This document shows positions 1 through 15,505 of a stretch of 38,714 bases of DNA, piece by piece. The translations under genes were made by a program, and so were the position numbers. Position 1 is the stretch's first letter, and every line of letters begins with the position of its first letter. The stretch spans positions 1 through 38,714 of the forward strand of contig NZ_CALVGO010000009.1 in the NCBI RefSeq assembly GCF_944327125.1. The letters run 5' to 3'. The DNA is from an uncultured Faecalicoccus sp. GTDB taxonomy: Bacteria > Bacillota_I > Bacilli_A > Erysipelotrichales > Erysipelotrichaceae. Below the pieces are notes generated by a model. It saw nothing but the letters and a program-made list of their open reading frames with translations. It was not told the origin of the DNA and ran no database searches.

Positions 1-942
1 GATCATTATACATACGACATCCATCCTGTGGAAAAAGACAAGCTGGATTCCTTTATGAAAGAAAAAGCGTTTAAGGCGATCAATGTTACGATTCCTTATA
101 AAAAAGACGTGATCCCCTACCTTACAGAATTGGACGATGCCTCAAAGAAAATCGGAGCGGTCAATACCATCGTAAATAAAAACGGGAACCTGTATGGATA
201 TAACACAGATTACTATGGTTTTGATTATATGGTCCGAAAACACAAAGTTTCTTTTACCGATAAAAAAGTTCTTGTGTTGGGAAACGGCGGTGCCAGCCAG
301 GCCATTCAAGCCGTAATCAAAGACCATGGTGCTAAGGAAATGCTGGTGACGGATATCGTAATGAATCCAGGCATTCTAAGCATCGAGGAAGTTTATGACA
401 AACATCCCGACATCGATATCGTTGTAAACACTACTCCTTGCGGCATGTATCCCAATGTAGATTCCGCCGCTGTTGATCTGAGTCAGTTTAAGAAGATCGA
501 AGCCGTATTTGACTGTGTATATAATCCAATGGATACAGAGTTTACTTTACAGGCTAAAGAATTAGGCATCAAGGTCGCTGTGACCGGCTTAGAAATGCTG
601 GTAGCTCAGGCAAAACGTGCTTTGGAACATTTTAAAGATATTCAGATTGATGATGAAGAGATCGATCGGATCTACCGTGAGATTCTTTTAGAAACAGCCA
701 ATCTGATCACCACATGTCAAGATATCAACGTACTCAATGAATTAAGTTCGAAGATACAAAAACCTGTTGTTTATTTTCAACAAGATGAACAACAGGCCAT
801 CGAAAACAATCAGATCCTTGTCATTGACAAAAACGATATCATCAAGCATCACAAACGTCTGATTTCAAACGGGTTTATCGTGGATGGGGATTCAACGTCG
901 TTGATCCTGGAACATTTTAAAAAATCAATTCAAAATTATTGA
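1..942 (+). CDS. aroE: AroE-like shikimate dehydrogenase with degenerate kinase-like tail (5' partial)
   Basis: The reading frame is open from the first base of the window, so the N-terminus is missing; the GTG at 28 is internal and not a real start. Visible AroE landmarks are the NVTIPYK segment with the catalytic Lys, GYNTDY with the catalytic Asp, the NADP-binding GNGGASQA loop, NTTPCGM and a GLEMLVAQAK helix. The AroE part ends near base 690. About 85 further residues follow. They resemble the shikimate kinase half of the paralogue at 9934-11196 in order (the start of the domain, an L-S-K-x-x-K segment, then a NGF-I-x-D stretch), but they have no Walker A loop and no GGG motif. The gene ends at a bidirectional terminator. 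The AroE assignment is secure. The kinase-relic reading is my inference from aligning the paralogues by eye. Confidence 0.85.
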   Translation, partial: DHYTYDIHPVEKDKLDSFMKEKAFKAINVTIPYKKDVIPYLTELDDASKKIGAVNTIVNKNGNLYGYNTDYYGFDYMVRKHKVSFTDKKVLVLGNGGASQAIQAVIKDHGAKEMLVTDIVMNPGILSIEEVYDKHPDIDIVVNTTPCGMYPNVDSAAVDLSQFKKIEAVFDCVYNPMDTEFTLQAKELGIKVAVTGLEMLVAQAKRALEHFKDIQIDDEEIDRIYREILLETANLITTCQDINVLNELSSKIQKPVVYFQQDEQQAIENNQILVIDKNDIIKHHKRLISNGFIVDGDSTSLILEHFKKSIQNY

Positions 943-5854: not shown

Positions 5855-6739
5855 TTAAAACTGAATATCCAATACATCTTTGATGTGTTCTACAGGCATA
5901 TCCTGACCTGTCCACATTTTAAAAGCAGCAGCTCCCTGATACAACATCATTCCTTCTCCATTGATGGCTTTGGCGCATCCTACTTCTTTAGCGGTTTCCA
6001 ATAACTTAGTGGTTCTAGGAGAATATACTGTATCAGCTACAATCAAATCTTTTCGAAGATAGGATGCGTCCGGGATAACCATCTGACCCTCTAACGGTTT
6101 CATACCTACGCCAGTAGCGTTGACAAAGATATAAGAGTCTTCAATTTCACGGCGCAGAGATTCATGATCGGCCAAATCATATAATGTGGCTTTACAGCTT
6201 GTTTTTTCGTTGATGTTCTTTACGTTTTGTTCAGCACGAGCCCAGAATTCATCACGGCGGTTAAAGATCGAGATTTCCTTTACTCCGTCCAATGCTGCCT
6301 GGATCTCGATGGCAGTAGCGGCTCCACCCGCTCCGGCAATCGTCATCTTTTTCCCGATCACATCGACACCGCTTTCTTTCAAGCCGGTCATAAATCCGAT
6401 TCCATCTGTGATGTGCCCAGTCAAGACACCATTGTCATTGACAACGGTATTCACTGCACCACAAAGTTCAGCGGCAGGAGACAGATGATCCAGATACTGA
6501 CCAATCACCGTTTTATTAGGCATGGATACGTTCCATCCGCGAACTTTCATAGCACGGAACCCTTTGACCGTATCTTCCAATGTAGAATTATCCACTTCAA
6601 AGGCAAGGTAAGCATAATCCAAACCTAATTTCTTAAAAGCTTCATTGTGCATCGTCGGGCTTTTTGAATGGCGAATCGGATACGCGATCAGCCCAATCAG
6701 CTCTGTATGTCCTGTAATTCGTTCTGTAATTTTACTCAT
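5855..6739 (-). CDS. ydiB: Quinate/shikimate dehydrogenase, YdiB-like
   Basis: 294 residues. Unlike the two AroE paralogues in this window, it carries the full substrate motif (AYPIRHSKSPTMHNEAF, with both Ser residues). It also has NVSMPNK with the catalytic Lys, HITDG with the catalytic Asp, GAGGAATA and FNRRDEFW. The MAYPIRHS-type start, VSMPNK and FNRRDEF are typical of the YdiB branch, which oxidises both quinate and shikimate with NAD. The C-terminus has the MLYQGAAAFKMWTGQDMP motif. The SD GGAGG precedes the ATG, and the gene is 12 nt from the OYE gene. Expected role: quinate to 3-dehydroquinate and shikimate to 3-dehydroshikimate. Confidence 0.93.
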   Translation of the reverse strand: MSKITERITGHTELIGLIAYPIRHSKSPTMHNEAFKKLGLDYAYLAFEVDNSTLEDTVKGFRAMKVRGWNVSMPNKTVIGQYLDHLSPAAELCGAVNTVVNDNGVLTGHITDGIGFMTGLKESGVDVIGKKMTIAGAGGAATAIEIQAALDGVKEISIFNRRDEFWARAEQNVKNINEKTSCKATLYDLADHESLRREIEDSYIFVNATGVGMKPLEGQMVIPDASYLRKDLIVADTVYSPRTTKLLETAKEVGCAKAINGEGMMLYQGAAAFKMWTGQDMPVEHIKDVLDIQF

Positions 6740-8857: not shown

Positions 8858-9760
8858 ATGAACTATAATTACTTAAAATACTTTCGGGTCCTGGCAAAAA
8901 CGGAACATTATACGCACGCTTCAGAAATGCTCAACATCTCCCAACCATCCCTTTCGCATGCGATCAGTGAATTGGAAAATGAATTGGGCGTGACCTTGTT
9001 CGAGAAACAAGGTAGAAACATTCGTCTGACCAAATACGGAAAATTTTACTATGACTATGTCGAACAGGGACTTACAGAAATCGAACATGGAAATAACTTT
9101 ATCAAATCACTGGCCAGTGTTGATTCTGGTACGATCGACCTTGGATTTATTTATACATTGGGAGCTTATTATATTCCCAATGTAATGAAACGATTTTTAA
9201 AGACTCACCCGGGCATCCATTTTAACTTGTATCAAAATACTTCGCCTACGATCATAAAAAACTTACGGGATCAAACTTTTGATGTCGGTTTTTGTTCCAA
9301 AGTTGAAAACACCAACGATATCAACTATATTCCGGTCGTAAAAGAAGAAATTGTACTGGTTGTATCCAAACATCATCCGTTAGCCAAATACGACTCTATT
9401 GATCTCACAAAAATAAAGGACAGTGAAAAATGGATCCTGTACTCCAATCGATCCGGCCTTCGCCCCTATCTGGACCAGGTCTTTAAAACGGTTCGAATCC
9501 AGCCTTCCATCCAGTGTGAGGTGGTTGAAGATTCTGCCGCCCTGGGCCTTGTGGCAATCAATTACGGTATTGCTTTGGTACCGAAAATCGATATGATCAA
9601 GTTATATGATGTGAAAGACATAAAAATCGAAAATAAACTGGAAGATCGAACCATCTACATGGCCACGTTAAAAAATCGGTATTTAACCCCCTCTGTCAAC
9701 AAATTTATCAACTATTTGGTGCATTATACCTTTGACAATCAAAAGCCTGAAAACGAATGA
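8858..9760 (+). CDS. LysR-family regulator, probable quinate/shikimate sensor (QuiR-like)
   Basis: 300 residues. The N-terminal winged helix (NYLKYFRVLAKTEHYTHAS then LNISQPSLSHAISELENELG and LFEKQGRNIRLTKYG) is a textbook LysR DNA-binding domain. Residues about 90-300 form the periplasmic-binding-like effector domain (GTIDLGFIYTLGAYYIPNVM). The start is fixed by the family N-terminus, yet no SD precedes it, and a TATAAT sits 6 nt upstream. It is divergent from the OYE-ydiB-MFS operon and shares the palindromic operator with it. In Listeria a LysR protein, QuiR, activates shikimate/quinate operons in response to shikimate; a similar role here is inferred from context. Confidence 0.92.
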   Translation: MNYNYLKYFRVLAKTEHYTHASEMLNISQPSLSHAISELENELGVTLFEKQGRNIRLTKYGKFYYDYVEQGLTEIEHGNNFIKSLASVDSGTIDLGFIYTLGAYYIPNVMKRFLKTHPGIHFNLYQNTSPTIIKNLRDQTFDVGFCSKVENTNDINYIPVVKEEIVLVVSKHHPLAKYDSIDLTKIKDSEKWILYSNRSGLRPYLDQVFKTVRIQPSIQCEVVEDSAALGLVAINYGIALVPKIDMIKLYDVKDIKIENKLEDRTIYMATLKNRYLTPSVNKFINYLVHYTFDNQKPENE

Positions 9761-9768
9761 AAAAATAA

Positions 9769-9797
9769 TTGATTTTAAATGAAAAAATTGATATTAT
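9769..9797 (+). promoter_or_regulatory. Promoter of the aromatic biosynthesis operon
   Basis: A -35 TTGATT (9769-9774), exactly 17 nt of spacer and a -10 TATTAT (9792-9797). It lies only 8 nt after the lysR stop. The expected start coincides with the ATG of the leader peptide at 9804. Confidence 0.75.
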
Positions 9798-9803
9798 TTT
9801 TAC

Positions 9804-9845
9804 ATGAAAATACTTTCGAATAGTTATTTTTACTTTTTTAACTAA
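9804..9845 (+). CDS. Candidate aromatic leader peptide MKILSNSYFYFFN
   Basis: A 13-codon frame with ATG at 9804 and TAA at 9843-9845. Codons 8-12 are TAT-TTT-TAC-TTT-TTT, that is Tyr-Phe-Tyr-Phe-Phe. It lies between a good promoter and two hairpins, in front of an AroE-AroK and DAHP synthase operon, the layout of Phe/Tyr attenuation leaders such as pheL. Its stop codon abuts the first hairpin. A weak stem (TAGTTA 9821-9826 with TAACTA 9839-9844) encloses the aromatic codons. There is no SD; with the -10 ending 6 nt before the ATG the mRNA would be leaderless. T-rich DNA gives Phe and Tyr codons by chance, so this remains a candidate. Confidence 0.55.
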   Translation: MKILSNSYFYFFN

Positions 9846-9881
9846 AAAGCCCTGCGAAAATTAAAAAAATTCAGGGCTTTT
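9845..9881 (+). promoter_or_regulatory. Leader hairpin A
   Basis: A 10-bp perfect stem AAAAGCCCTG/CAGGGCTTTT with a 17-nt A-rich loop. It starts on the last base of the leader-peptide stop codon, so a ribosome at the stop would block its 5' arm. It may be a terminator (its 3' end is TTTT) or a pause or alternative structure. Confidence 0.7.
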
Positions 9882-9882
9882 C

Positions 9883-9919
9883 AAAGTGTTAGCGTTTCAG
9901 TTAACACTTTTTATTTTTT
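9883..9919 (+). terminator. Leader hairpin B with U-tract, candidate attenuator
   Basis: The 9-bp stem AAAGTGTTA/TAACACTTT has a 10-nt loop and is followed by a T-rich run (TTTATTTTTT) and then the SD of the aroE-aroK gene (AAAGGAG, 9920-9926). The 3' arm could also pair upstream: CTTTTTA (9907-9913) with TAAAAAG (9843-9849), or AGTTAA (9899-9904) with TTAACT (9838-9843). Both alternatives use the leader-peptide end and would be blocked by a ribosome there. Confidence 0.6.
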
Positions 9920-9933
9920 AAAGGAGAAAGATT

Positions 9934-11196
9934 ATGAAAACAGGTTTGATTGGACAGGATCTTAGAGGTAATTTCACCCAGCGCGTATCGAATGCCTTTG
10001 GTCTGTATGATTACGAAATGAAGGAAATGACTCCCGAAGAAACGATACAGTTTGTAAAGGAGAAAAAATTTGAAGGTATCAATATCACCTTCCCTTACAA
10101 GCAGCTGGTTTATGATTACGTAGACATCCCCAGTGAAAACGCAAAGAAAATCGGTGCCGTGGATACGATCGTAATCAAAGATGGAAAGTCTTACGGATAC
10201 AACACCGACTATCAGTCCTTCTACTATTTGATCAAACGCCACAACATAGATTTTAAAGGCAAAAAGATCCTGGTATTAGGTAACGGGGGTTCCAGCGCCG
10301 CGGTCCAGGTTGTTGCTAAAGAAATGGGCGCAAGCGAAATCCATGTCGTGGACATCAATGAAAGTCATGGAAGCATCTCTTATGTCGAATGCTTTGCGAA
10401 ACACCTGAACTCGGATATTGTCATCAACACTTCACCGGTCGGCATGTCTCCGGACATTTCCAACGCTCCTATTGCCATGTCGTTATTTTCTAATTGTGAA
10501 ACCGTCATTGACTTGATCTACAATCCTATATTGACAACGTTAGGTTTTAATGCCCAGGAACTTGGGATCCAGCGTGTGATTGGCATTGAAATGGAAGTAG
10601 CACAAACGAAATATGCCGTTGAACTGATTACAGGAAAGACCATCTGTGATGATAAAATTGATGAAGTGATTCACGATCTTCTCATTGAAAAATGTAACAT
10701 CGTATTAATTGGAATGCCTAGTGCGGGAAAGACCTCTATCGGACAAATCCTTTCAAAACGATTGAATAAACGCTTTATCGACCTGGATGATGTCGTCGTG
10801 GAAAAGGCAAAAATGCCGATTCCCGAGATCTTTGCACAAAGTGGAGAGGCCGGATTCAGAAAATTGGAATCGATGGTTGCCCTGGAACTTTCTACATTAA
10901 ACAATGTCATTATTGCCACGGGCGGCGGAACCATTAAGAATAAAGTCAATATGGATAATCTTAGACTGAACGGGATCGTGATCTTTATCGACCGCGATCT
11001 GGATAAACTGATTTCCAGCGATCCAAACCGTCCTCTGTCTTCCAGTAAGGAAGCCTTAAAGATCATGCACAAGGAAAGATATCCGCTGTATCAGAAATAT
11101 TCCAATGTTGTCGTGCTCAACAATGAAGAAATGGAAAAAACCGTCGATGAGATCATCAAGGCTTACCACGAAACAGCGACAAAAGCCGTTATTTAA
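9934..11196 (+). CDS. aroEK: Bifunctional shikimate dehydrogenase-shikimate kinase fusion
   Basis: 420 residues. Residues 1 to about 245 are AroE-like: NITFPYK (catalytic Lys), YNTDY (catalytic Asp), GNGGSSAA (NADP loop). Residues from about 250 are a complete shikimate kinase: Walker A GMPSAGKTS, IDLDD, GFRKLE, ATGGG, lid DPNRPL and RYPLYQKY. The substrate loop of the dehydrogenase is unusual: after GLIG the normal HSxSP is replaced by GNFTQ, so the two Ser that hold the shikimate carboxylate are absent. The SD AAAGGAG precedes the ATG. DAHP synthase follows 15 nt later. The two domains would catalyse consecutive steps, 3-dehydroshikimate to shikimate to shikimate-3-phosphate. Confidence 0.93.
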   Translation: MKTGLIGQDLRGNFTQRVSNAFGLYDYEMKEMTPEETIQFVKEKKFEGINITFPYKQLVYDYVDIPSENAKKIGAVDTIVIKDGKSYGYNTDYQSFYYLIKRHNIDFKGKKILVLGNGGSSAAVQVVAKEMGASEIHVVDINESHGSISYVECFAKHLNSDIVINTSPVGMSPDISNAPIAMSLFSNCETVIDLIYNPILTTLGFNAQELGIQRVIGIEMEVAQTKYAVELITGKTICDDKIDEVIHDLLIEKCNIVLIGMPSAGKTSIGQILSKRLNKRFIDLDDVVVEKAKMPIPEIFAQSGEAGFRKLESMVALELSTLNNVIIATGGGTIKNKVNMDNLRLNGIVIFIDRDLDKLISSDPNRPLSSSKEALKIMHKERYPLYQKYSNVVVLNNEEMEKTVDEIIKAYHETATKAVI

Positions 11197-11211: not shown

Positions 11212-12225
11212 ATGATTATCACGCTAAAGAAAGACGCTAAACAAGATCAAATCGATCATTTGATACATCGCTTTGAAAATATGGGTCTCCAAGTTACGGT
11301 GATCTATGGTGAAAACTACAACGTATTCGGACTGGTTGGCGATACGACAAAAGTCGATGAAAAAAATGTCATGGCCAACCCTATCGTTGCCAATGTACAG
11401 CGGGTAGACGAGCCATATAAACTGGTCAATCGAAAATTTCATCCTGACAACACCATCGTGGATGTTAACGGAATCCAGATAGGCGGACAGAAGATCGTCA
11501 TGATTGCCGGGCCATGCAGTGTTGAAGGAAAAGAACAGATTACACGGATCGCCAAAGAAGTCAAAGAGTGCGGCGCTGACATGTTAAGAGGCGGTGCCTA
11601 TAAACCAAGAACAAGTCCGTATGCCTTCCAGGGGCTTGGAACCGAAGGAATCAAAGATTTATGTATCGCCCGTAAGCAGACCGGATTGCCTGTCGTCAGC
11701 GAACTGATGGCCGTAGAACATCTGGACGAATTCATCGAGAATGTAGATGTGATACAGATCGGCGCAAGAAATATGCAGAACTTTGATTTATTAAAAGCGG
11801 TGGGAAAAACCAAAAAGCCCGTTTTATTGAAACGTGGGCTTGCCAATACGATCAGTGAATGGATCATGGCTGCCGAATATATCATGTCGGAGGGAAATCC
11901 AAATGTGATCTTCTGCGAAAGAGGAATAAGAACTTTTGAAACCATGACACGAAACACTCTGGATCTGGCCGTGATTCCCATTATAAAAGAAAAGACCCAT
12001 CTGCCTATCATCATTGATCCAAGTCATGCCGCCGGAAACTGGAAGCTTATTGAATCTTTGTCTTTGGCATCCATTGCGGCAGGAGCTGACGGTTTGATCA
12101 TTGAAGTACACGATAATCCTGAGTGTGCCTGGAGCGATGGCGATCAGAGTTTGAAACCGGACAAATATGCCAGTTTGATCCAAAAAGGAAAAAAAATAGC
12201 CGAAGTGGTCGGCCGAAGAATATAA
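11212..12225 (+). CDS. aroF: 3-deoxy-7-phosphoheptulonate synthase with N-terminal regulatory domain
   Basis: 337 residues. The first 70 or so form the small ferredoxin-like domain seen in Thermotoga-type DAHP synthases, which senses Tyr/Phe for feedback inhibition. The barrel follows with MIAGPCSVE, LRGGAYKPRTSPYAFQG, IGARNMQNF, KPVLLKRG, RGIRTFE, IDPSHAAG and EVHDNPECAWSDG. It condenses phosphoenolpyruvate and erythrose-4-phosphate, the entry step of the shikimate pathway. AGGGGGAAAATTT precedes the ATG. Being controlled by Tyr/Phe at the protein level fits the aromatic leader peptide upstream. Confidence 0.96.
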   Translation: MIITLKKDAKQDQIDHLIHRFENMGLQVTVIYGENYNVFGLVGDTTKVDEKNVMANPIVANVQRVDEPYKLVNRKFHPDNTIVDVNGIQIGGQKIVMIAGPCSVEGKEQITRIAKEVKECGADMLRGGAYKPRTSPYAFQGLGTEGIKDLCIARKQTGLPVVSELMAVEHLDEFIENVDVIQIGARNMQNFDLLKAVGKTKKPVLLKRGLANTISEWIMAAEYIMSEGNPNVIFCERGIRTFETMTRNTLDLAVIPIIKEKTHLPIIIDPSHAAGNWKLIESLSLASIAAGADGLIIEVHDNPECAWSDGDQSLKPDKYASLIQKGKKIAEVVGRRI

Positions 12226-13097: not shown

Positions 13098-14045
13098 ATG
13101 TACAACAATCCTTATAAAAATTCCTGTGACAATAAAAGATATTATACGATCAGTTACTATTTTAAGAAGAAATACAATCAAAAAGTGGCCAAGGTCCCTT
13201 TGAACGCCGGTTTTACATGCCCAAACAGAGACGGTACAAAAGGAATTGGCGGCTGTACCTTCTGTTCTGAAAAAGGAAGCGGTGACAGTATTTTAAAATT
13301 TGATCAGGATCTGGAAACGCAATATGAACAAGGATTGAAGAGAATGCGAAAGAAATGGCCTAACTGTTTAGGATTTGCCTACTTTCAATCGTATACCAAT
13401 ACTTATGCCGATCTGGAAACAATCAAAAAGATCTATGATCCATTCTATGCCCGAGAAGATGTCTTAGGCATTTGTATCGCAACCAGAGCCGATTGCCTGG
13501 AGGAAGATGTCTTAGAGTATTTTGCGAATAAAGCCAGAGAAAAAGAAACATGGATCGAGATCGGACTGCAAAGCGTTCATGAAAAAACGATCCAAAGATT
13601 GAATCGCTGTCATTCCACAAATGAAGTATGGGAGGCCTTGAAAAAGATCAAAAACACTCAAATCAAGAGCTGTGTCCATATTATCAATTCTTTACCCTAT
13701 GAAACAAAAGAAGAGATGATCGATACTGTCAAAGAACTTTCTAAACATCCTTTTGATGCGATCAAGATCCATATGCTTCATCTGATACAAAACACCGCTT
13801 TGGCCAAAAAATACAAAGAATCTCCTTTCCCTATACTCTCACTGGAAGAATACGTCGATGTCGTTGTAAGGCAGCTCGAATATCTGCCCTATGACTGCAT
13901 TATTGAACGGTTGACCGGAGATGGCATGGCGGATGATTTGATTGAACCAGAATGGACGATCAAGAAAACGATCGTCACCAATGAGATCGATAAAAAAATG
14001 GCAAAAGAAAACACATGGCAAGGAAAAAAGAGTCGGATATCCTAA
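13098..14045 (+). CDS. Radical SAM protein of the YhcC/YtqA family
   Basis: 315 residues. The family motif TCPNRDGTKGIGGCTFCSEKG contains the three cluster Cys residues in the long-spaced pattern that marks this family. Also present are GFAYFQSYTNTYADL, GICIATRADCL, WIEIGLQSVHEKTIQRLNR and IERLTGDGMADDLI. It lies on its own, and its stop overlaps the tyrS stop on the other strand by 3 nt. The SD is weak (GGTGAT). Its substrate is unknown; homologues are often annotated as tRNA-modification-related oxidoreductases on weak grounds. Confidence 0.88.
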   Translation: MYNNPYKNSCDNKRYYTISYYFKKKYNQKVAKVPLNAGFTCPNRDGTKGIGGCTFCSEKGSGDSILKFDQDLETQYEQGLKRMRKKWPNCLGFAYFQSYTNTYADLETIKKIYDPFYAREDVLGICIATRADCLEEDVLEYFANKAREKETWIEIGLQSVHEKTIQRLNRCHSTNEVWEALKKIKNTQIKSCVHIINSLPYETKEEMIDTVKELSKHPFDAIKIHMLHLIQNTALAKKYKESPFPILSLEEYVDVVVRQLEYLPYDCIIERLTGDGMADDLIEPEWTIKKTIVTNEIDKKMAKENTWQGKKSRIS

Positions 14046-15286
14046 TGATCCGACTCTTCTAATTTAACACAGTAATAATTTTTCTTTCCGCGCTTTAAGA
14101 TCATAAAATCTTTGACGCAGCAGTTTTCGATGCAAATCTTTGTCAAAGGATCGGTAACCTTTGTTCCGTTGATCGCAATCGAATTTCCTTTGATCCATTC
14201 TCTGGCCTCACGTTTGCTTGAAGCAATATGCGTTTGAACCAACACATCTTCCAGCAACAAGCCGCAAGGACAATTGATTTGATCCATTTGGGCAACCGCT
14301 TCTAACTTCTGTTCTTCATTCAGTTCTGAAAAAGAGCCTCTAAACAAGGCATTCGTGATCTTTAATGCCGAATCCAATCCTTCTTCTCCGTGAAGATCTT
14401 TTACGACATTGGCTGCCAAGGCTTTTTGCGCTTCACGTTTATGCGGTTCTTCTTTCAAAGACACTTCCAGCGCATTGATCTCATCTACAGATAAGAACGT
14501 TAATTTTTTCAAGTATTCAATCACTTTTGTATCTTCGGTATTGAACAAGAACTGATAGAGCTCGTATGGACTTGTTTTCTTAGGATCCAGCCAAACCGTT
14601 CCCGTTTCGCTTTTCCCAAATTTTGTTCCGTCAGCTTTTGTGATCAACGGCATGGTCAAACCATAACATTTTACATCCGCTCCACACTTTTTACGAATCA
14701 GTTCCAGACCCGATGTAATATTTCCCCACTGATCCTGTCCCCCGATCTGCATTGTACAGTTGCGGGTTTTATACAATGTATAGAAATCTAGCGATTGCAG
14801 GATCATATAAGAGAATTCTGTATAGCTGATTCCCGAATCCAATCGTTTCTTGACCGTCTCTTTGTTGATCATATAATTCACATTGAATAGCTTTCCATAA
14901 TCTCGTAAGAAATCAATGATCGTAATATCTTTGGTCCAGTCCAGGTTATTGACCATATCAAATCCCCAGAGCTTAGAGATCTGTTCATGCAGAGCATCGT
15001 AGTTTTTCTGCAGCACTTCCGGTGTCAGCATATTTCTTTCTCCGGTGGCCTTAGGATCTCCGATAAATCCAGTTGCCCCGCCAACCAGCATAATCGGATG
15101 ATGCCCATGCATCTGAAGACGTTTGGCCATCAATAACGAGCTGTAATGCCCGATATGTAAAGAATCCGCCGTTGGATCGGTTCCAATATAAAATGTCAGC
15201 TGTTCATTGTTGATCGCATCTTCTACTTCCGGGCTTGTGACATTATCGATCAGTCCTCGCCATTTTAATTCATCAAATAGTTTCAT
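14042..15286 (-). CDS. tyrS: Tyrosyl-tRNA synthetase
   Basis: 414 residues, a class I synthetase. The HIGH signature is in DSLHIGHYSS and the KMSKS equivalent in GTKFGKS. The tyrosine pocket shows in SYTEFSYMILQSLDFYTLY and GGQDQWGNITSGLELI. A C-terminal S4 RNA-binding domain (SSKREAREWIKGNSIAINGTKV) completes the bacterial form. GGAGGATATGCG precedes the ATG at 15286; the upstream in-frame start at 15343 would lie inside the T-box. Expression should rise when uncharged tRNA-Tyr accumulates. Confidence 0.97.
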   Translation of the reverse strand: MKLFDELKWRGLIDNVTSPEVEDAINNEQLTFYIGTDPTADSLHIGHYSSLLMAKRLQMHGHHPIMLVGGATGFIGDPKATGERNMLTPEVLQKNYDALHEQISKLWGFDMVNNLDWTKDITIIDFLRDYGKLFNVNYMINKETVKKRLDSGISYTEFSYMILQSLDFYTLYKTRNCTMQIGGQDQWGNITSGLELIRKKCGADVKCYGLTMPLITKADGTKFGKSETGTVWLDPKKTSPYELYQFLFNTEDTKVIEYLKKLTFLSVDEINALEVSLKEEPHKREAQKALAANVVKDLHGEEGLDSALKITNALFRGSFSELNEEQKLEAVAQMDQINCPCGLLLEDVLVQTHIASSKREAREWIKGNSIAINGTKVTDPLTKICIENCCVKDFMILKRGKKNYYCVKLEESDH

Positions 15287-15302
15287 CGCATATCCTCCAT
15301 AA

Positions 15303-15499
15303 AAAAAACGCCCTCCTATAAGGACGTTTGCACGCGGTACCACCTTACTTCATACAAAAAGTATGCACTCCAGTCTTTAACGCAGACTTACGTCAAAAGA
15401 AGCTCCAAGGTGTATTCCACAGATTTTCCTGCAGCTTTTCACCAGCCAGCTGCTCTCTGTAAAGAAAGTATCTGTGTACTCTTTCTTTTCATCGCTGTA
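15303..15499 (-). promoter_or_regulatory. Tyrosine T-box leader of tyrS
   Basis: On the minus strand, from about 15499, a stem I region carries AAAGAGTA and the AG-bulge-like TGGTGAAAAGCTGC. The specifier context GGAATACACC has UAC (Tyr) at 15412-15414. The T-box GGTGGTACCGCG (15333-15344) offers UGGU to pair with the ACCA end of uncharged tRNA-Tyr. A terminator follows: ACGTCCTT pairs with GAGGGCGT across a 4-nt loop, with eight U residues after it. All key parts are in the canonical order. Confidence 0.95.
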
Positions 15500-15505
15500 T
15501 CTAAA

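Follow-up and report, generated by a model that had tools for sequence, protein, structure and literature searches.

The window analysed here is the whole 38,714 nucleotide stretch of Faecalicoccus sp. DNA. We focus on positions 9769 to 11196, and their neighbours, where a fused aroE-aroK gene is followed by a gene for DAHP synthase. The features are collected in Table 1. Note that a LysR gene upstream of the leader ends at position 9760, and that the first pair of hairpin A includes the last base of the leader TAA stop codon. The original prediction described a promoter, a 13-codon frame with five consecutive aromatic codons, a 10 bp hairpin abutting the leader stop and a second hairpin followed by a T-run and the Shine-Dalgarno sequence of the operon. 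Direct reading recovered each of these elements at the positions given, and a promoter scan also identified the promoter.

Table 1. Features of the aroE-aroK locus, with positions numbered from the start of the window.
Feature	Position	Strand	Basis
Promoter: -35 TTGATT, 17-nt spacer, -10 TATTAT	9769-9774 (-35); 9792-9797 (-10)	+	Direct reading, promoter scan
Leader peptide frame MKILSNSYFYFFN, 13 codons	9804-9845	+	Direct reading; conserved in many genera
Putative regulatory codons TAT TTT TAC TTT TTT (Tyr-Phe-Tyr-Phe-Phe), codons 8-12	9825-9839	+	
Hairpin A, 10 bp, 9845-9854 paired with 9872-9881	9845-9881	+	Folding, covariation
Intrinsic terminator: hairpin B (9883-9910, 11 bp) plus T-rich tail TTATTTTTTA	9883-9920	+	
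Shine-Dalgarno sequence AAGGAG of aroE-aroK	9921-9926	+	Direct reading
Fused aroE-aroK: shikimate dehydrogenase (substrate-binding domain) and shikimate kinase	9934-11196	+	PF08501, PF01202
DAHP synthase, with N-terminal ferredoxin-like regulatory domain	11212-12225	+	Pfam PF00793, PF18152

Besides aroE-aroK, two further shikimate dehydrogenase-like frames are present in the window, at positions 7-711 (+) and 5855-6739 (-). The second adjoins genes for an MFS transporter and a reductase of the old-yellow-enzyme type, as well as a LysR gene in divergent orientation. This neighbourhood is possibly a cluster for shikimate or quinate use.

Hairpin B is the sole terminator-like site on either strand of positions 9700-9960, where shuffled sequences gave a mean of 0.0. 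The fold of positions 9804-9936 has a free energy of -31.6 kcal/mol, compared with -18.6 +/- 3.0 for shuffles (z -4.4). For the leader frame, a qualifying frame was defined as one that begins with ATG, spans 9-22 codons and has four or more aromatic codons among its last 7. Such a frame occurred in 48 of 2000 shuffles of the leader stretch (about 2%), and the leader is the only qualifying frame in the whole window, on both strands. By itself, a chance event at this level makes the frame suggestive. A chance origin is ruled out because the frame is conserved across genera.

Upstream of aroE-aroK, two genomes of the same genus (G001 and G002) encode the leader MKVFSSNYFYFFNS. The aroE-aroK leaders of other genera, with only about 38-65% protein identity, include MHTTTYETFYFYFR, MFLIPNHFYFYFQ, MKQFANSYFYFYSK, MNTSRHYYFYFK, MKLHHSFFYYFTFR and MHVAVSFYFIFS. 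Codon statistics were drawn from 41 leaders of relatives. Within the last eight codons, Tyr is found in every leader (41/41) and Phe in 40/41; Trp is found in none (0/41). Each of positions -2 to -6 before the stop codon encodes an aromatic residue in between 29 and 36 of the 41 leaders, the figure being 33 at both -2 and -3. The frame and its Phe and Tyr codons are kept while flanking sequences, and other residues, vary. This is the outcome that the original prediction had proposed to look for by alignment; the opposite pattern, of hairpins kept and frame lost, was not seen among the relatives' leaders. The leader stop codon normally forms the base of hairpin A, and hairpin B with its U-tract comes next in all cases.

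In the aroE-aroK leaders, the codon before the last Phe (at -2) mostly ends with C, whatever the amino acid (TAC 11, ACC 5 and ATC 2; TAT 4 and TTT 1; 41 leaders). This C-ending codon suggests a constraint at the nucleotide level. Because C mostly precedes the last Phe codon, we considered pairing between the sequence CUUU and AAAG at the base of hairpin B. This pairing could form; it is short and lacks covariation. Separately, the leader end CTTTAAAT has 8-9 nucleotides of complementarity with ATTTAAAG, which lies just after the terminator; this was seen in L007 and L036, of one genus only.

The structure alignment comprised 17 leaders and 17 aligned pairs, 8 from hairpin A and 9 from hairpin B. 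Compensatory changes were detected for 12 of the 17 pairs, and 97.6% of cells were paired. For hairpin A, these changes affect 7 of the 8 pairs (98.5% of cells paired) and, for hairpin B, 5 of 9. The covariation score was 0.564. Shuffles gave 0.273, with none of 500 reaching the observed value, and sliding the alignment gave no more than 0.135. We considered whether hairpin A might be a second terminator and rejected this, since a T-run follows A in the window's genus and a few others, not in most genera. Inspection for a frameshift through hairpin A identified no conserved open frame.

In most genera outside the window's group, a small hairpin, often CCA...TGG, is nested in hairpin A; the window's own hairpin A is without one. 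In clear cases, the first position of the nested hairpin is +11 or +12, counted from the stop codon. This would coincide with the edge of a ribosome that has the leader stop in its A site, provided that the ribosome footprint extends about 10 nucleotides past the A codon. Toeprints at 15-16 nucleotides, reported for tlrB, are consistent with such a footprint (PMC6851288). A U-run follows the nested hairpin and, in 17 of 27 such leaders, it contains TTNTTT, against an expectation of 2.3. In B. subtilis, TTNTTT serves as the pause motif for NusG (PMC9226507, PMC12288461), and it is read there by the N and T of the NusG RNTPG motif (PMC12288461). NusG from the genome studied here carries RNTPG.

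Promoters are also arranged distinctively. The best-scoring promoter for each leader was picked irrespective of ATG position, and placement falls in two sharp classes. In the first, comprising 18 leaders and including that of the window, the -10 element ends 6 nucleotides before the ATG and there is no Shine-Dalgarno sequence. The spacer is 17 nucleotides, except in one leader that has a 16-nucleotide spacer and 7 nucleotides from -10 element to ATG. In the second class, with nearly all other leaders, the -10 element ends 17-27 nucleotides before the ATG and a Shine-Dalgarno sequence lies at normal spacing. Because the -10 element ends 6-7 nucleotides before an ATG lacking a Shine-Dalgarno sequence, transcripts of the first class, the window's included, look to begin at or next to the AUG. 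Hence, their translation start is predicted to be leaderless.

A covariance model of the leader had matches in 46 of 273 genomes of the family, representing 25 of 60 genera. In a class-wide sample of 296 genomes, seven had a match and all seven belong to this same family. The model matches L125 and L131-L133 were taken as chance, having no aromatic gene downstream or no leader frame. Leader copies, either second copies or before a first gene, also precede aroB (3-dehydroquinate synthase, by sequence motifs) and separate DAHP synthase genes. Examples are MHTSKFYYFYYE, MHNKGYYYYR and MKLTSTFYFYFR for aroB, and MNIQSTYFYFYFR and MNPSKYYRFYN for stand-alone DAHP synthase. Tyr is enriched in several aroB leaders. 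In loci with aroC ahead of aroE-aroK, the position directly 5' of aroE-aroK is without a leader. Judged from these sequence matches, the Phe/Tyr leader element is a predicted regulon that extends beyond a single operon.

To search for an antiterminator, we scored the complementarity of all segment pairs in 20 leaders, taking dinucleotide shuffles as the reference. Just two pairs exceed the shuffles, A5:A3 (mean z -2.2) and B5:B3 (-3.2), with all other pairs between -0.6 and +0.4. Candidate antiterminators, pairing the 5' UTR, early or late leader, arms of A or downstream tail with B, were rejected, with mean z close to 0 across the 20 leaders. Isolated strong pairings in L006 and L008 are not common to others. 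The identical test was positive for His leaders of a sister family, whose classical 2:3 pairing had z values of -1.9 to -4.0; hence, the method is able to detect an antiterminator. We also folded leaders with a ribosome occupying, in turn, every aromatic codon and the stop codon. Hairpin B folds with a probability of about 0.8 or more throughout, the exceptions being the untranslated states of L006 and L047. Hairpin A is lost only when the ribosome covers the last codons or the stop. The two hairpins, noted in the original prediction as compatible with each other in the window, are mutually compatible in nearly all leaders. The suggested switch, in which positions 9843-9849 pair with 9907-9913, did not hold up: it is particular to the window, being found in 0 of 24 other leaders (1/25 overall). 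We conclude that the Phe/Tyr leaders have no conserved antiterminator, and that the mutually exclusive 2:3 and 3:4 pairings of a classical attenuator are absent.

Our data suggest that the locus is probably a ribosome-mediated attenuator, which controls expression of aroE-aroK and DAHP synthase according to how much charged Phe- and Tyr-tRNA is available. From sequence and comparison, two testable attenuator features are evident: a conserved cluster of end-product codons, and a predicted terminator between the leader and the first gene. In the proposed sequence of events, RNA would begin at or next to the AUG of the 13-codon leader. A run of Phe and Tyr codons closes this frame, its stop codon being the predicted base of hairpin A, and the putative terminator B stands between A and the operon; both sequence and comparison support these arrangements. 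With ample Phe and Tyr, the ribosome would reach the stop codon and be released, and RNA polymerase would terminate at B. With either amino acid short, the ribosome would be held in the aromatic run, beside A, and B would be read through. Hence, the position of the ribosome may govern closing of the lower stem of A, both its occurrence and its timing relative to polymerase at B. In genera with the nested hairpin, a NusG-type pause could hold polymerase inside A until the ribosome arrives. The state of A would pass to B without a conserved competing pairing.

Tentatively, we extend this to a family-wide Phe/Tyr regulon, with leaders either leaderless or led by a Shine-Dalgarno sequence, and without antiterminators. 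A ribosome at the stop codon, or close to it, would directly gate the stop-anchored hairpin A, a NusG-type pause within A would provide timing, and closing of A, rather than a competing pairing, would set termination at B. Note that the sign of the effect of A on B is ambiguous, because an early aromatic stall leaves A free and a late stall opens it. Two versions, with the same sensor, can be distinguished. In one, which is possible but doubtful, a ribosome at the final aromatic codons would prevent A from closing, and termination at B would fall; after release, A would close and A plus B would terminate well. The frequent aromatic codons at -2 and -3 favour this version, as does the closest precedent, B. 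subtilis tlrB, where a stalled ribosome blocks termination (PMC6851288). However, B folds alone, whether A is closed or not, and a complete stall would fall on the first of the hungry codons, a position that leaves A free. The other version, which we consider unlikely, has a closed hairpin A antagonise termination at B. An early stall would let A close before B is made, and polymerase would pass B; a ribosome at the stop would keep A open, and B would terminate. The aromatic codons at -4 to -6, which are strongly kept, favour this arrangement. Furthermore, a ribosome at the stop covers about 10 nucleotides, which is exactly the lower arm of A, and the +11/+12 start applies to most leaders possessing a nested hairpin. 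Even so, A would have to affect B without competing pairs, and the aromatic codons at -2 and -3 would act in opposition.

We also considered readings that depart from codon-supply sensing. The leader could be a TnaC-like arrest peptide that binds free Phe or Tyr, with FxF as an arrest motif rather than as hungry codons. While many aroE-aroK leaders do have the C-terminus F-x-F-[RKQS]-stop, the aromatic runs of aroB leaders are YYYY, YFYYY or FYYFYY, with no fixed motif, and codon runs of both amino acids suffice for the data; this reading is improbable. Scarcely credible is an absence of regulation, with A and B two terminators of the upstream lysR transcript beside a chance frame: the T-run after the window's A, the nearby end of lysR and the chance frequency of the frame alone fit such a view, but many genera, with differing upstream genes, retain both the frame and its placement on A, and an aroE-aroK transcript from the only visible promoter must cross both A and B.

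Bacillota are usually described as sensing amino acids with T-boxes and with DNA- or RNA-binding proteins. Part of the stated reason is that RNA polymerase outruns the ribosome in these bacteria. In the family described here, candidate leader peptides with Phe and Tyr codons precede as many as three distinct aromatic operons, and T-boxes occur in the same genome as well. The system lends itself to testing in two respects: leaders apparently without any 5' UTR, and attenuators without an antiterminator. The nested pause, if real, would show how, outside antibiotic-resistance genes, a fast polymerase is delayed until the leader ribosome arrives.

Among known systems, the enterobacterial pheA and pheST attenuators have a Phe-rich leader, led by a Shine-Dalgarno sequence, mutually exclusive 2:3 and 3:4 hairpins and a terminator. 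The Phe/Tyr leaders resemble these in their Phe-rich leader, terminator and control of aromatic synthesis. They differ in having no antiterminator, in using Tyr as well as Phe, and often in having no Shine-Dalgarno sequence.

The T-box (RF00230) is the usual Bacillota device for sensing uncharged tRNA, and two are found in the same genome. The Phe/Tyr leader differs: in line with the original prediction, positions 9769-9933 contain no T-box, with no RF00230 match at the gathering threshold and none with an E value up to 5, in a search that found the tyrS T-box in the window. More broadly, no Rfam leader family scored above gathering at the locus (best sub-threshold E at least 0.27), and Rfam searches of eight relatives found one unrelated T-box only. 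The tyrS T-box, at positions 15317-15501 (-), scores 130.8 bits and is directly upstream of tyrS (14042-15343, minus strand). This T-box contrasts with the predicted leader-peptide control of the aromatic operon 5 kb away. Similarly, the second DAHP synthase of the genome, on contig C22, has a T-box (L001, 2534-2765, minus strand) and, inferring from position, its specifier would be UAC (Tyr). Hence, paralogous DAHP synthases in the same genome appear to use two different tRNA-sensing devices. In another genus, a T-box of 111.7 bits lies upstream of the aroE-aroK locus (L046, 4275-4476, plus strand).

The expectation that a peptide leader of this kind would be unusual for Bacillota stands in part. 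No earlier report of a Phe/Tyr leader in Bacillota was found in the literature searched. However, His leader attenuators are predicted in this phylum, and a Leu-rich leader has genetic support. His leader attenuators have been predicted in B. cereus, Peptostreptococcaceae and Erysipelotrichales (PMC9413887, PMC2965389), those of the B. cereus group being at hisZ/hisS* (PMC2965389). We also observed His-rich leaders (HHHH) before his genes in the sister family (L061-L083; for example L062, L065, L080 and L082). These have the classical 1:2, 2:3 and 3:4 architecture, and their first hairpin also begins at the leader stop. Judged from these His leaders and from PMC9413887, the family carrying the Phe/Tyr leaders is probably Erysipelotrichaceae. 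Like the Phe/Tyr leaders, His leaders are short and rich in end-product codons, with the stop codon at a hairpin and a terminator before the operon. Unlike the Phe/Tyr leaders, they have a clear third pairing, 2:3; the codons and operons also differ.

In the Leu-rich leader of S. aureus ilvD, which has genetic support, Bacillota offer a further case of a biosynthetic operon under the control of an amino-acid-rich leader peptide (PMC5794164). There, the codons are for branched-chain amino acids, and an antiterminator pairing with the U-tract has been proposed.

Finally, the B. subtilis tlrB and vmlR leaders (PMC6851288, PMC9226507) differ from the Phe/Tyr leaders in that an antibiotic is the signal. 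Furthermore, vmlR has an explicit antiterminator, and the stalled ribosome of tlrB acts on the terminator hairpin itself, whose completion it blocks. The leader of the window is also distinct in being without the nested hairpin. In common are a leader frame, an intrinsic terminator and a TTNTTT NusG-type pause with its pause hairpin, the pause being a candidate one in the Phe/Tyr leaders. The tlrB pause hairpin sits at the top of a larger hairpin, an arrangement shared by the hairpin nested in A, and at tlrB pausing brings polymerase into register with the leader ribosome (PMC6851288).
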